Assembly: GCF_003367315.1 (NCBI RefSeq)
Contig: NZ_CP031415.1
Span: 2,850,001 to 2,914,000, forward strand
Source of the DNA: Saccharospirillum mangrovi
GTDB lineage: Bacteria; Pseudomonadota; Gammaproteobacteria; Pseudomonadales; Natronospirillaceae
Reading direction: 5' to 3'
Length of the DNA: 64,000 bases
Positions 7,523 to 64,000 of the stretch are shown piece by piece. The position numbers and the translations under genes were made by a program. The notes under the pieces were generated by a model. The model was not told where the DNA came from. It saw nothing but the letters and a program-made list of their open reading frames with translations, and made no database searches. The first letter of the stretch is position 1; each line of letters opens with the position of its first letter.

Positions 7523-7809
7523 GCGCACGGCAGAATCGTCAAATCACCCATTTGCTTAAAGCCTGGTACCGGCGGTATCACCTTCATTACGCTAAACGAT
7601 AACTCCAACGATGTGATTTGGCAGAACACCGGAAACGGCAAACTCTTATTGCACAAGTCCGGTATTACATTCCGCTACAAAAAGCCAACAAGCTCTCACT
7701 AATTATTTCGATGAACCCCGCTATGTTGATGTCGGCCAACAAGAGCGACACTACCAGCGGCAGTCCCCAGTCCGACTGGTTCTCGCTCACCAAAGCGGGA
7801 ACTAGAACA
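7523..7809 (+). other. Gap with possible decayed coding sequence
   Basis: No intact gene is supported in these 287 bases. One frame reads protein-like from about 7576 to 7697 (GTGGITFITLNDNSNDVIWQ); another reads protein-like to a stop near 7806 (ALTNYFDEPRYVDVGQQERH). The frame change and lack of a start suggest a degraded gene tail, or chance. No terminator was seen. Confidence 0.25.
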
Positions 7810-8073
7810 ATGAAAATTCTCCAAACGACCGCGGCGTTTTTCTTTGCCCTAACGCTCACCAACGTCAGCTTCGGTCACTCTGGCGGCACCAACGCCATGG
7901 GTTGCCACACCAATCATCGCACCGGCGACTACCACTGCCACACGCCCAAAACTCCGCCACCGCAGCGAGTGCTCTATTGTCATGTGATTAATGGAGAACC
8001 GCGCTGCGGTTACGCGCTTAGCACGTGCAACGACCTGGTATCGCAATATGGCGGGCAGTGTGTTCAACAATAA
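7810..8073 (+). CDS. Small secreted YHYH-domain protein
   Basis: An 87-residue protein. The start ATG 7810 gives a 21-residue signal peptide (ending VSFG) followed by the compact His/Cys motif HSGGTNAMGCHTNHRTGDYH and CH, the hallmark of YHYH-domain proteins. Two further Cys pairs follow in the C-terminal half (YCHVINGEPRCGY; CNDLVSQYGGQC), suggesting disulfides or metal binding in the periplasm. Function unknown. A longer frame from 7618 would bury the signal peptide. Confidence 0.7.
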   Translation: MKILQTTAAFFFALTLTNVSFGHSGGTNAMGCHTNHRTGDYHCHTPKTPPPQRVLYCHVINGEPRCGYALSTCNDLVSQYGGQCVQQ

Positions 8074-8092
8074 GTAGGTGTTTGAAACAAGT

Positions 8093-9172
8093 TTAGAGTG
8101 AACGAAGGCGATTGATGATTGCTTGGTAGTTCGTCACATAATTCTTCCACCGTAACGGTATGGCGCTTTCAACTTTTCTACCGTTGAGTTGTGGCTTCAA
8201 CACGTCTGCCAATTCGCGTGCCTCTTCAGCCGCATCCTGTTCATTTCCCTGATAAAACACCGCGTCCGGCAAACACTCTGGATAAGCTTGTCGATTCGGC
8301 ACTACGCAAGTGGCGCCGGCCTGGGCGAGTTCCTGCATTGCCAGGCCCTGAAAATCGTGCAGGGCGGTTGAAACGCCGACGCCAGCGCGGCCCAGCCAGT
8401 GGCGGTAGGTTGCTTCGTCGGCCTCACCCCAATGCACTACACACTCACCCAAGGCTTGTCGCTCCCCGGCAAAAGCATCACCGCGGCCACCACCACTGCC
8501 CAACATCGCAAGTCGAAAATCGACACCACTCTGTTTCAGTTGCAACAGCGCACTGAGAAAACACTGCGGTTGCTTATCCCATTCCCAGCGATGGTTCCAG
8601 ACAATCAACTTCGGGTCTTTTGGTTGCTCACGCAGTGCTGAGAACCGCTCTGTTAATGGCACCGGCAATACGTCGGAAATTTTTTCAATATTACTCAATA
8701 CATTGCCAGGAAATTGTTCCGGGAATTTTTTGAATAGTTGCCGAGCTCCGGTAAAAAATGTATCGCGATTAAAGTGGGTATTAAAACTGATCCAGTCGGC
8801 ACAAAAGGCGTTTTCCAGACTCTTGAATTGCCAGGCAGTTTGATGCGCTCGTTGTTGTTGATCTGACAACGGATGGGCAAATTGGTTTTCGTGGAAATAC
8901 AACCACAGTGGCACATCGCGCAGTGCCGGGCAGCGGGCTTTTAAGGTCACAACATTGGTTAAGCTGGTGGCGATGATCAGATCGTAGGATTGCTGAAACG
9001 CCGCGTCGTCACTCATTGCCCACAGCCAGCCGGAGGCTTCAATGCGCCAACTGAAATGCCGGGCCGGCTGGTGGCGCAGCGTCCAGTTGTGTTCGGGAAA
9101 GGCAGCCATCAGGCCGTCGCACCAATAGCGGTGGCTGGCGGAATGATAGGCGCTGAGTAGCAGAATGTTCAT
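8093..9172 (-). CDS. tRNA-queuosine alpha-mannosyltransferase-like glycosyltransferase (DUF3524)
   Basis: A 359-residue GT-B glycosyltransferase. The N-terminal DUF3524 half begins MNILLLSAYHSASHRYWCDG and continues with WLYFHENQFAHPL and WISFNTHFNRDTF, the pattern shared with the queuosine-tRNA mannosyltransferase QTMAN (GTDC1). The C-terminal half has the glycosyltransferase region with a Glu-containing donor site (GVSTALHDFQGLAMQELAQA). By homology it would transfer mannose to queuosine in tRNA-Asp in the cytoplasm. It lies downstream of ubiX on the same strand, separated by 83 bases holding a palindromic repeat. Confidence 0.78.
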   Translation of the reverse strand: MNILLLSAYHSASHRYWCDGLMAAFPEHNWTLRHQPARHFSWRIEASGWLWAMSDDAAFQQSYDLIIATSLTNVVTLKARCPALRDVPLWLYFHENQFAHPLSDQQQRAHQTAWQFKSLENAFCADWISFNTHFNRDTFFTGARQLFKKFPEQFPGNVLSNIEKISDVLPVPLTERFSALREQPKDPKLIVWNHRWEWDKQPQCFLSALLQLKQSGVDFRLAMLGSGGGRGDAFAGERQALGECVVHWGEADEATYRHWLGRAGVGVSTALHDFQGLAMQELAQAGATCVVPNRQAYPECLPDAVFYQGNEQDAAEEARELADVLKPQLNGRKVESAIPLRWKNYVTNYQAIINRLRSL

Positions 9173-60748: not shown

Positions 60749-62619
60749 CAACAACACTCACACCACCGGCATCGCCCCTGGCTATGCCCACTCAGCAACT
60801 GTCACAACGCCCGAACAAATTTGCCGCCCGCAAAACGTTGACCACCTGGCTGGCGCGTTACTTTACCTTCGGCGGCAGCCTAGCGCTGACCGTCGCCGCC
60901 AGCTGGCAGATGTACCTAACGCTGCCGCTCAGCGACGCCATGACGACAACCGGCCCCAGCGACCTCTGGGTAACGGCATTGCTATGGCTGCTGCTGGGCC
61001 TGTTCACCCTGACCTTCGGCTGGATTTCGCTGACGGCGACGTCCGCCCTGGCCTCGCTCTTGTTCTACCGCGCTCGGCCCAGTTCACGGCAGGCCCAACC
61101 CAATGCTGCCCTGCGCGGCAAAACCGTGCTGCTGATGCCCATTTACAACGAAGACGCCGCCAGCGCTTGCGCAGCCCTCGCCGCCATGGGCGAAGACCTG
61201 GCCCGCCTGGACCTGCACCGGCATTTCGAGATTTTCATTCTCTCGGACAGCAACAAGCCCGACGTCATCAGCGCCGAAACCGCCGCCGTGCAGTGCCTGC
61301 GTGATCGTATGGGCGATCGTCTTCCAGTCTGGTACCGTCGCCGCACCGAGAACACCGAACGCAAAACCGGCAACATTCGCGACTTCATCAACCGCTGGGG
61401 CCGCAGTTACGACTACATGGTGGTGCTCGATGCCGACAGCCTGATCGCCGGCAGCACCCTCGCCACCCTGGTGCGCGAAATGGACGCCGACCCCAACACC
61501 GGCATTCTGCAAACCCTGCCCCGCCAATACGCTGGCGAAACGCTGTTTGCCCGGCTGCAACAATTTTCCAGCTTGGCCTACGGCCTGGTGTTCGCCAGAG
61601 GTCTGTGCGCCTGGCAAGGCGACAGCGGCAATTACTGGGGGCACAACGCCATCATCCGCATTCGCGCTTTCGCAGCGGCCGCTGGCTTGCCCGAACTGCC
61701 CGGCCCACGCCCCTTCGGCGGCGAAATCCGCTCACACGACTTTGTCGAAGCCGCATTAATTCGGCGCGCCGGCTGGTCGGTACGGATGCTGCCCGACCTG
61801 GACGGTTCCTGGGAGGAATGCCCGCCCACCCTGCGCGACGCCGCCATTCGCGACCGGCGCTGGGCGCAAGGCAACGTTCAACACCTGGCCGTGCTACGCA
61901 CTCGCGGCCTGCGCTGGCCAAGCCGGGCGCACATGATTATGGGTGTGATGAATTACCTGACGTCCCTGCTGTGGCTCGCCATGGTGTCAGTTGGCCTGGT
62001 GCTGAGCACGCTCTTTGCGCTGCAAGAAAGCCAGGGCATTGCCGGTGGCGCGCTGCCCCGGTTCGATTCAGACCGTATGGTCGGGCTGTTCGTGTGCACC
62101 ATGGCGCTGTTACTGCTGCCCAAACTGTTGGGTCTGCTGGGTGGTCTACTGAGCAAAGCGCGGCGCGGCGGGATTGGTCGACTGAGGTTTTTCGTCAGCG
62201 CTCTGCTGGAACTGCTGTTCTCGGTACTGCACGCCCCCATTTTCATGCTGGTGCACAGCCGCCACCTCTGGGAAATCGCCCGCGGGCAAGACTCAGGCTG
62301 GTCCGCCCAACGGCGGCAGGGGCGTGGGGTGATCTGGCGGCCATTAATTGCCAGGCATGGCGTGCAGACCATTCTCGGCATGCTGGTGCTCGGACTGCTG
62401 CTGTGGCAATCGTCTTCACTGTTGTATTGGATGCTGCCCACTGTCATCGGGCTGATATTGGCCGTACCGCTTTGCGCCCTGACGGGCAGCAAAACAGCCG
62501 GCCAATGGCTGGCAAAGTGGGGCTTGCTGGGTATCCCCGAAGAGGCAGCCCCACCTGAGATCATGCAACGCCGACAGGCGTTTCTAGACACTTATTCGGT
62601 GACTATCAATTCTCGATAA
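60745..62619 (+). CDS. opgH: Glucans biosynthesis glucosyltransferase OpgH
   Basis: A 624-residue inner-membrane family 2 glucosyltransferase. ATG 60745 overlaps opgG; a GTG at 60736 is an alternative. YMVVLDADSLIAGSTLATLV near 225 contains the DxD site and DRRWAQGNVQHLAVL near 368 the Q-x2-RW type motif. Six to eight membrane helices are present. It is much shorter than E. coli OpgH (847), with reduced N- and C-terminal cytoplasmic extensions. Makes the beta-glucan backbone from UDP-glucose. Confidence 0.94.
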   Translation: MTTTLTPPASPLAMPTQQLSQRPNKFAARKTLTTWLARYFTFGGSLALTVAASWQMYLTLPLSDAMTTTGPSDLWVTALLWLLLGLFTLTFGWISLTATSALASLLFYRARPSSRQAQPNAALRGKTVLLMPIYNEDAASACAALAAMGEDLARLDLHRHFEIFILSDSNKPDVISAETAAVQCLRDRMGDRLPVWYRRRTENTERKTGNIRDFINRWGRSYDYMVVLDADSLIAGSTLATLVREMDADPNTGILQTLPRQYAGETLFARLQQFSSLAYGLVFARGLCAWQGDSGNYWGHNAIIRIRAFAAAAGLPELPGPRPFGGEIRSHDFVEAALIRRAGWSVRMLPDLDGSWEECPPTLRDAAIRDRRWAQGNVQHLAVLRTRGLRWPSRAHMIMGVMNYLTSLLWLAMVSVGLVLSTLFALQESQGIAGGALPRFDSDRMVGLFVCTMALLLLPKLLGLLGGLLSKARRGGIGRLRFFVSALLELLFSVLHAPIFMLVHSRHLWEIARGQDSGWSAQRRQGRGVIWRPLIARHGVQTILGMLVLGLLLWQSSSLLYWMLPTVIGLILAVPLCALTGSKTAGQWLAKWGLLGIPEEAAPPEIMQRRQAFLDTYSVTINSR

Positions 62620-62663
62620 AGCAACGCTCGAGAAGTAATGCCCGATAAAGAACCAGACGGCTG

Positions 62664-63203
62664 TTACAGCATCCGCCGGAACAAGCCGTCTTTATCGATC
62701 AGGTGTTTCAACGCCGCCCCAATATGGCCGACGATCAACACACCCAAGGTAATTGCAAAGGCACCGTGAATCGCAAACAAACGATTCGCCAAAGCTTCGT
62801 CCACAGGCACAAACGGCATGGCCGGCAGGTAATAACCCGCCACAGTAACCAGTGCCGGATACGCCGTAACACCCGCCCAGCCAAGCAAGGGCGTCAACAC
62901 CAGCATGACATAGAGCAAGTGATGCAAACTGTGAGCGGCCAATTGCAGGTGACGCGGCAACGTATCCGGATACGCCGGCCCCTTCAGCCAAACCTTCATC
63001 ACCACCCGCACAACCATCAGCAACAGAACCGTAAAGCCGATCAACTTGTGCCAGTTGTACAAGGTGTTAGTCAGCGCCCCCCAAATTCCATGCTCGGCAC
63101 GTTCGGCCATCGTTATGCCAATGGGTATTAATGCGAAAATCATCAGCGCCATAAGCCAGTGCAACAATCGCCAGGCAAGCGGGTATTTTTGAATTTGGGT
63201 CAT
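62664..63203 (-). CDS. cybB: Cytochrome b561
   Basis: A 179-residue four-helix di-heme protein. Candidate heme His residues are in AWRLLHWLMALM (first helix), NWHKLIGFTVLLLMVVRV (second), LHHLLYVMLVLTPLLGWAG (third) and HGAFAITLGVLIVGHIGAAL (fourth). Length and topology are those of the prokaryotic CybB family, a quinol-linked membrane cytochrome. Convergent with opgH. Its upstream side marks the end of the G+C-rich chromosomal backbone in this window. Confidence 0.92.
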   Translation of the reverse strand: MTQIQKYPLAWRLLHWLMALMIFALIPIGITMAERAEHGIWGALTNTLYNWHKLIGFTVLLLMVVRVVMKVWLKGPAYPDTLPRHLQLAAHSLHHLLYVMLVLTPLLGWAGVTAYPALVTVAGYYLPAMPFVPVDEALANRLFAIHGAFAITLGVLIVGHIGAALKHLIDKDGLFRRML

Positions 63204-63664
63204 TGGTTCTTTTCCTTAGCACGGTTTTAAAAGAGGGGATTCCCTACCTGGAGCGCATCATAGAGATTATTTTTGTGGGGGGCTATCTTAAGGGGTTAGG
63301 GGTATTAGTTATGGGTTGGTCTATACCGAATTACTCACAACCACTTGTTGCGAGTTTATTAATAATAAAAAAGGCACCACAGTACTAGCGAAGAAGGCAA
63401 TAGGTGGATTATTCATTCGCAGAGAAAGCCTAGCTTTTCGGGCTTTTCATATCGTGAAAGACAAGCTGTCTTCGTTTGGTGAGGAAATGAAACGATTGCT
63501 GGGCATACTGTCTGTTGAACATACGGCGGTCATACAGACGCGGTTTCAAGAGTGGTCGCTTTCGCCAGCGGGAGGAGTGCCTCGGAGTACTGGCAATAAC
63601 TGTACGGCGACCTAGTATAAGAGCTACACTAAAATCACATTTCATAAAGAAATGGGTAAACCTG
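63204..63664 (+). other. A+T-rich interval with structured-RNA potential upstream of the reverse transcriptase
   Basis: About 460 bases without a convincing gene. A frame at 63316-63615 lacks a ribosome-binding site and resembles nothing. The base composition is clearly lower in G+C than cybB. Inverted repeats: AAAGCC/GGCTTT (about 63426-63447), GTCTGT/ACAGAC (63510-63539) and GGTCGC/GCGACC (63554-63612). This may be the promoter and non-coding RNA of the downstream reverse-transcriptase system. Confidence 0.45.
63510..63612 (+). ncRNA. Candidate structured ncRNA before the reverse transcriptase
   Basis: Two consecutive stems are visible: GTCTGT (63510-63515) with ACAGAC (63534-63539), and GGTCGCT (63554-63560) with GGCGACC (63606-63612). 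The second encloses a local CGCTTTCGCCAGCG hairpin and a GTAC...GTAC repeat. The element ends about 50 bases before the reverse transcriptase ATG. Retrons and several DRT systems encode an RNA in this position; the assignment here is inference. Confidence 0.4.
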
Positions 63665-64000
63665 ATGTTAGATCAAACCATTTCAAAGAGCTCTCTACGT
63701 AGCCACTGTTCTGCTGCGGACATATATAATTTCAAATTAGGGTGGAGCCTAGATGAACAGCTAGATTCATTAGAAGGCATCGCAAACAATATCAATAGCA
63801 ACGAATTCAAGTTTTCAAATTTCAAGTCGTTCTCAAGAAACGGCAAGGTAGTTTATAAGCCAGTAAAAGCTGAAGATTACTTTGCAGTAAAAATTGCAAA
63901 TCACCACTTAAAAAAAATATTTTCAGTAAAGCAAAGCGACCGACAAACACTCGTTAAACAACTAAAAATCCTTCTCCAGGAAAACACCCCTTTTAAACTG
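63665..64000 (+). CDS. Putative defence-associated reverse transcriptase, N-terminal part (cut by window end)
   Basis: An open frame of 112 codons from ATG 63665 to the window end, no stop. It begins MLDQTISKSSLRSHCSAADI. The segment VVYKPVKAEDYFAVKIANHH, then IFSVKQSDRQTLVKQLKILL and QENTPFKL, looks like the region just before the first catalytic motif of DRT/unknown-group (UG) bacterial reverse transcriptases, where xTPF is normally followed by a DIxxFYExI block. Codon use is A+T-rich, unlike neighbours. Catalytic YxDD lies outside the window, so class cannot be set; a DRT3a-like opening is possible. Confidence 0.6.
   Translation, partial: MLDQTISKSSLRSHCSAADIYNFKLGWSLDEQLDSLEGIANNINSNEFKFSNFKSFSRNGKVVYKPVKAEDYFAVKIANHHLKKIFSVKQSDRQTLVKQLKILLQENTPFKL

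Follow-up and report, generated by a model that had tools for sequence, protein, structure and literature searches.

A complete, probably working DRT3 system in the chromosome of Saccharospirillum mangrovi, with a Drt3b tail tyrosine away from its usual position

The reading frame that runs off the right-hand edge of the window, i.e., the whole stretch of 64,000 nucleotides analysed here (G000:C1:2850001-2914000 in the single-contig genome of Saccharospirillum mangrovi, 3,686,911 bases), is the first gene of what we consider, with a probability of about 0.93, to be a complete DRT3 anti-phage system, chromosomally encoded and probably functional. Its parts are read directly from the DNA, and its products, trigger and defensive role would be those of the published system. 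An earlier note on the window had taken this frame for the start of a defence-associated reverse transcriptase (RT) system continuing beyond position 64000. The frame is indeed genuine and well placed and was read correctly in essence, as the extended contig carries the whole DRT3 set. The type, which that note left unnamed, is DRT3 (UG3, UG8 and an RNA). DRT3 has already been published and structurally solved, and the copy described here is ordinary but for the displaced tyrosine (Tyr) of its priming tail. Past position 64000 the window numbering is continued (coordinate in the chromosome stretch L005 plus 50000; the last 400 bases were checked and are identical), and the features are as follows.

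63665..64000, plus strand: part of drt3a inside the window, first 112 codons
63665-64864, plus strand: full drt3a, 399 aa, YVDD codons from 64250
64857-66845: drt3b, product of 662 aa with the tail KKEMRAPALIKSY, YVDD codons from 65694
66861-67045: probable ncRNA, a noncoding stretch of ~185 nt after drt3b
66862-66872 with 67034-67044: closing helix of 11 bp, TGCTGTGCTGC with GCAGCACAGCA, just 3' of ACACAC
67025-67030: ACACAC template within the probable ncRNA
67201-67277, minus strand: tRNA-Met, beyond the ncRNA

Inside the window, no stop interrupts the frame from the ATG at 63665 up to 64000, and both peptides quoted from it in the earlier note (IFSVKQSDRQTLVKQLKILL and QENTPF) are present. 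A second ORF list also gives the same frame with an upstream TTG start at 63515; the start at 63665 is exact, the chromosome frame being 63665-64864 (L005:13665-14864). The base composition agrees with the A+T-rich leader proposed for it, G+C being 0.42-0.44 there versus 0.55-0.66 to its left. G+C is 0.32-0.37 over drt3a and drt3b, 0.42-0.46 in the adjoining stretches and 0.54-0.66 further out. The assignment to DRT/UG-type RTs holds already for the 111 residues inside the window, which match the PADLOC Drt3a profile PDLC02174 with an E-value of 1.5e-30 (residues 1-110 on profile positions 1-110). Among PADLOC profiles, the best match of this stub other than Drt3a is RT_UG4 (E 0.0032), and a Pfam search with the stub returned nothing above cut-off. 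Translation of the full frame gives a 399-residue RT with the motif RYVDD that scores 449 bits against PDLC02174 (residues 1-398, covering profile positions 1-402 of 403); the runner-up family, RT_UG17, reaches 126 bits. The partner gene expected on the extended contig lies directly downstream, overlaps drt3a by 8 bases and encodes Drt3b (UG8), which matches PADLOC profile PDLC02176 with 671.6 bits (residues 2-655 on 2-649 of 651). The YxDD motif that was to be sought in the full-length translation occurs as YVDD in both RTs; the opposite outcome envisaged at the time, a protein with no RT motifs or closest to an unrelated family, is not what was found, Drt3a being the top profile.

These scores bear on the idea that the locus encodes some other RT, e.g., that of a group II intron, a retron or a UG17/UG4 relative. 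Such a reading can draw on generic RVT_1 similarity, RVT_1 being the only Pfam family above cut-offs, and on weak matches to intron RTs, but it is hardly credible in view of the gap between Drt3a and RT_UG17, the 672 bits of Drt3b versus 168 bits for its next-best PADLOC family (Drt6), and the adjacency of the two genes in DRT3 order with an ACACAC RNA downstream. The PADLOC profile scores rule out the group II intron and UG17/UG4 readings; for a retron, the best profiles are those of Drt3a and Drt3b, and the genome's own retron has its RT gene at a separate locus. That retron, of type III-A (G000:C1:636125-638681; L007:6126-7349 and 7528-8682), consists of a gene for a PRTase-like protein, which scores 397 bits with PADLOC PRTase_III-A, and the RT gene after it, which scores 563 bits with RT_III-A; it is therefore a second RT-based defence in the genome.

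The surroundings of the DRT3 genes are ordinary-looking. Two frames occupy the window from 59165, followed, up to 63203, by a cytochrome b561-like frame on the opposite strand (62664-63203); judged by eye, we take the former to be periplasmic glucan biosynthesis genes of the OpgG/OpgH type and the latter to be cytochrome b561-like. A promoter scan stayed below background (8 sites versus a shuffled mean of 12.2), and an Rfam search over L005 12600-18000 returned the tRNA alone above gathering scores.

For comparison, relatives were collected from 80 genome loci (the best 80 of 396 relatives found), 34 viral loci and six plasmid records, plus genome searches. The resulting set holds 111 loci (L005 and L009-L118), 105 of which have an unbroken Drt3b frame; those with broken frames (L048, L081, L111, L114, L117 and L118) were left out, and the viral matches L119-L129 stand outside the analysis. 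Since L067/L068 and L045/L099 are identical rows and others are near-copies, the counts given here are of loci and not of independent events. A recognisable Drt3a lies upstream in 103 of the 105 loci, and in the other two (L039 and L103) the fetched DNA starts at most 202 bases before the Drt3b frame.

The reference for function is the DRT3 system of Escherichia coli. According to PMC13174585, Drt3a and the RNA of that system produce poly(dTdG) from ACACAC, and Drt3b, whose gates are E22 and R241 and whose primer is Y666, synthesises poly(dCdA) with no nucleic acid as template; the strands anneal and RecBCD limits the product, and inhibition of RecBCD by phage Gam triggers growth arrest. The E. 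coli system shares with the locus studied here the order drt3a-drt3b-ncRNA, the two YVDD motifs, the E/R/R gates, ACACAC and a Tyr in the C-terminal tail of Drt3b. Residues E24, R75 and R249 of the focal Drt3b align with E22, R71 and R241 of the E. coli protein as numbered there, the transfer of E22 to E24 and of R241 to R249 being made through the alignment to 26cz_A with a chain/protein offset of 108 of our own counting. Glu26 and Arg253, named for another Drt3b in PMC13213688, fall on E24 and R249 in the alignment to 9z6y, also by our own count. Across the 105 Drt3b rows R249 is invariant, R75 occurs in 99 and E24 in 97 (seven have D and one, L039, has R with its N-terminus unaligned), and of the catalytic aspartates D282 is kept in 105/105 and D283 in 104/105. 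By this alignment, the predicted gate residues for protein-templated synthesis of poly(dCdA) are conserved in the focal Drt3b. The seven loci in which Asp replaces the Glu gate, a change of the E22D type (L009, L051, L064, L085, L108, L109 and L116), all keep ACACAC downstream.

The third component, an ncRNA with an ACACAC template at 66861-67045, is predicted and probably present. Within 450 nt downstream of drt3b, ACACAC occurs in 101 of the 105 loci (this stretch is shorter in L069, 264 nt, and L084, 353 nt), against 4/100 for the next 450 nt, 7/98 upstream of drt3a and 3/105 on the opposite strand. Pairing between the 22 nt 3' of the template and the sequence upstream exceeds that of shuffled versions (p ≤ 0.05) at 68 of the 101 loci, where about 5 would be expected; the same shuffle test of the closing helix gives p 0.005 for the focal RNA and a non-significant p of 0.145 for L016. 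Averaged over 85 loci, pairing is 0.24 for the template, most of which is thus single-stranded, 0.73 for its largely paired 3' flank and 0.59 for all bases; the respective values of the focal RNA are 0.35, 0.90 and 0.59. A covariance model built from L016 and L140, with the focal sequence held out, recovers the focal RNA (L005:16861-17045) with 24.7 bits and an E-value of 3e-4, the best match in 120,001 bases (window plus L005, which overlap by 14 kb), and the next match has 10.7 bits and an E-value of 1.

That the ACACAC and the helix are there by chance, the RNA partner being missing or elsewhere, is very unlikely. The motif does turn up in 3-7% of control stretches, and the covariance model has two training rows only, which makes its E-values rough, with several pairs non-standard in the focal RNA; against chance, both the position and the flanks agree with the near relatives, TACACACGAAGC being common to the focal locus, L016 and L140 at the template flanks, and the 11-bp closing helix and the rank of the held-out match have to be counted as well. 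An RNAalifold consensus of these three loci was weak (-8.15 kcal/mol, covariation term +0.12) and is used here for the outer helix at most. The stem just 5' of the template, which corresponds in place to 'stem-loop 4', a feature of the E. coli DRT3 RNA in PMC13174585, reached the 0.05 level in 8 of 85 loci in a test whose window left close partners outside and in 13 of 85 in a second test, which is weak support; the stem tests covered 85 of the 102 motif-bearing loci, those in which 60 nt or more separate the motif from the stop.

Some loci depart from this pattern. Two of the four without ACACAC within 450 nt downstream of drt3b, L060 and L071 of Snodgrassella, have normal gates and did not match an HMM made from 15 neighbour loci, which matched only L049 and L094, both among its training rows; our reading is that their RNA has been lost, has moved or has another template. 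The sister loci L037 and L055, also without ACACAC, carry the shorter TCACACGCCAGG and TACACGCCAGG downstream of drt3b, perhaps a shortened template.

By analogy with E. coli, the focal Drt3a would synthesise poly(dTdG) on the ACACAC template of the RNA encoded downstream, and Drt3b, in which E24 (dA gate) and R249 (dC gate) would stand in for a template, would produce poly(dCdA) attached to a Tyr in its C-terminal tail. These strands would pair, RecBCD would keep the duplex low, and a phage that inhibits RecBCD would cause the duplex to rise and cell growth to stop. The same products and trigger as in E. coli DRT3 are thus to be expected. What is observed at the focal locus itself is the set of genes and their order, the motifs and gate residues of both proteins, and the position of the RNA with its template and closing helix; the genome also contains a RecC gene.

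The feature that sets this copy apart is the tail of Drt3b. In the column of focal residue 657, at least 90% of 34 aligned Drt3b proteins have Tyr, and the focal protein has Ala657; the sole Tyr of its tail (KKEMRAPALIKSY) is the terminal Y662, five residues past the usual position. A figure legend of PMC13174585 calls the E. coli Y666 invariant in its set. Of 106 tails (the 105 plus L140), 103 have Tyr at the usual position, 89 of them by a strict regular expression and 14 of the other 17 by eye (nine hold a W that the expression excludes, L012 lacks one residue and L095 has one extra). The three exceptions are the focal protein, L041, whose tail is frameshift-like, and L016, whose tail KKELKSPSSLNSGLVSV has Ser at the usual position and no Tyr. 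The neighbouring frames of the focal Drt3b and of L016 were searched, and the usual tail was not found in them. The tail of L140 (KKELRSPYLYLNY) has Tyr at the usual place, at +2 and at +5, so that the three tails differ in that L140 has all of these, the focal protein has +5 alone and L016 has none. L140 is the nearest relative found (Drt3b 54% identical, versus 45% for L016), and in a tree calculated without L140 the focal and L016 proteins group together with an SH-aLRT value of 100.

Because the usual primer position is Ala657, the focal primer would be the terminal Y662, and L140, with Tyr at both places, suggests that the primer shifted in the focal line. These tails are most simply explained if lengthening of the tail introduced an alternative terminal Tyr and the focal line afterwards lost the usual one; for L016, either such loss can go further or the group formed by the focal protein and L016 is decaying. 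The general proposal, that in the focal clade the primer has moved, tail lengthening having supplied a second, terminal Tyr, so that the 'invariant' Tyr became dispensable and was replaced (by Ala in the focal protein and Ser in L016), with poly(dCdA) started from another residue or, in L016, from no Tyr, is tentative, and we rate it somewhat below even odds. A limited literature search turned up no description of Drt3b with its primer displaced. An AlphaFold2 model of Drt3b (pLDDT 85.0, pTM 0.87) leaves the tail, residues 654-662, unplaced (pLDDT < 50) and therefore does not show how far Y662 lies from the active site.

Ala657 leaves the membership of DRT3 by gene content untouched; what it weakens is the statement that priming here is exactly as in E. 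coli DRT3. Because of Ala657 in the focal protein and the missing tail Tyr in L016, the poly(dCdA) arm could nevertheless be impaired, and one may imagine a decaying DRT3 in which the loss of the priming Tyr (A657) has left that arm dead and the locus functionless or reduced to Drt3a alone. We consider such decay unlikely. An Ala where 103 of 106 tails have Tyr, the L016 tail in the protein that groups with the focal one, and a patchy carriage (at E ≤ 1e-60, Drt3b is present in the focal genome alone among 22 from its family and in 2 of 369 sampled from its class, the focal one included) would fit it, but the two frames are unbroken and retain YVDD and the gate residues, the RNA template and closing helix are likewise intact, and L140, a relative at 54% identity, also has a Tyr at the focal place.

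With the focal Drt3b as query, the same threshold (E ≤ 1e-60) gives 8 of 390 genomes of the order, the focal one included, and 2 of 163 genomes in the family to which the genome of L016 belongs. A search of viral contigs with Drt3a found no relative, and megablast of window 62600-64000 against plasmids returned nothing. In an empty-site comparison, the tRNA-Met/OsmC stretch is 83% identical in a genome of the same genus (G017), but cytochrome b561 gave no tblastn match in the loci of the five other members of the genus (~1,500 bases of flank each), so that an insertion is not demonstrated. Upstream of the DRT3 genes of L140, a frame in L140:1-1473 resembles by eye a phage replication gene A protein, and this copy may lie in a prophage or satellite.

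With regard to known systems, the nearest relatives found are the DRT3 loci of Vreelandella utahensis (L016) and of genome G420 (L140), which share TACACACGAAGC and a long tail with the focal locus. Among solved chains, phmmer matched the focal Drt3b to 26cz_A (E 2.7e-117) and 9z6y_H (E 1.9e-78), and Drt3a to 9z6y_A (E 4.1e-37, in two stretches). From its numbering, we take PDB 26cz to be the Drt3b of the E. coli system. The focal Drt3b is 36% identical to that of L097, whose tail matches the shown part of the 26cz chain; that tail reads KKELRTAYE, whereas KKEMRAPALIKSY has Ala at the usual Tyr position and ends with Tyr five residues later, and the template begins 179 nt after the drt3b stop in the focal locus versus 128 nt in L097. 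PDB 9z6y/9z6z, which are probably the entries of Deng et al. 2026, are more distant in sequence, matching Drt3b over nearly its whole length and Drt3a in two stretches. The DRT3 of these entries reportedly forms a 6:6:6 assembly. Among the fold matches listed, the Drt3b model is nearest to DRT4, AbiK, UG15 and DRT6, class 1 polymerases that are 15-17% identical to Drt3b in the fold alignments and that are single-gene systems not known to have such an RNA; no Drt3b entry occurs among the 50 fold matches listed, from a structure library that ends on 2026-04-08.

DRT3 is unusual in that one strand is copied from an RNA and the other is dictated by amino acids. Apart from the displaced Tyr, the S. 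mangrovi locus is one more DRT3 locus. If true, a displaced primer in a homologue whose template parts are intact would separate priming from protein templating and would offer a natural variant for the attachment of the first nucleotide.
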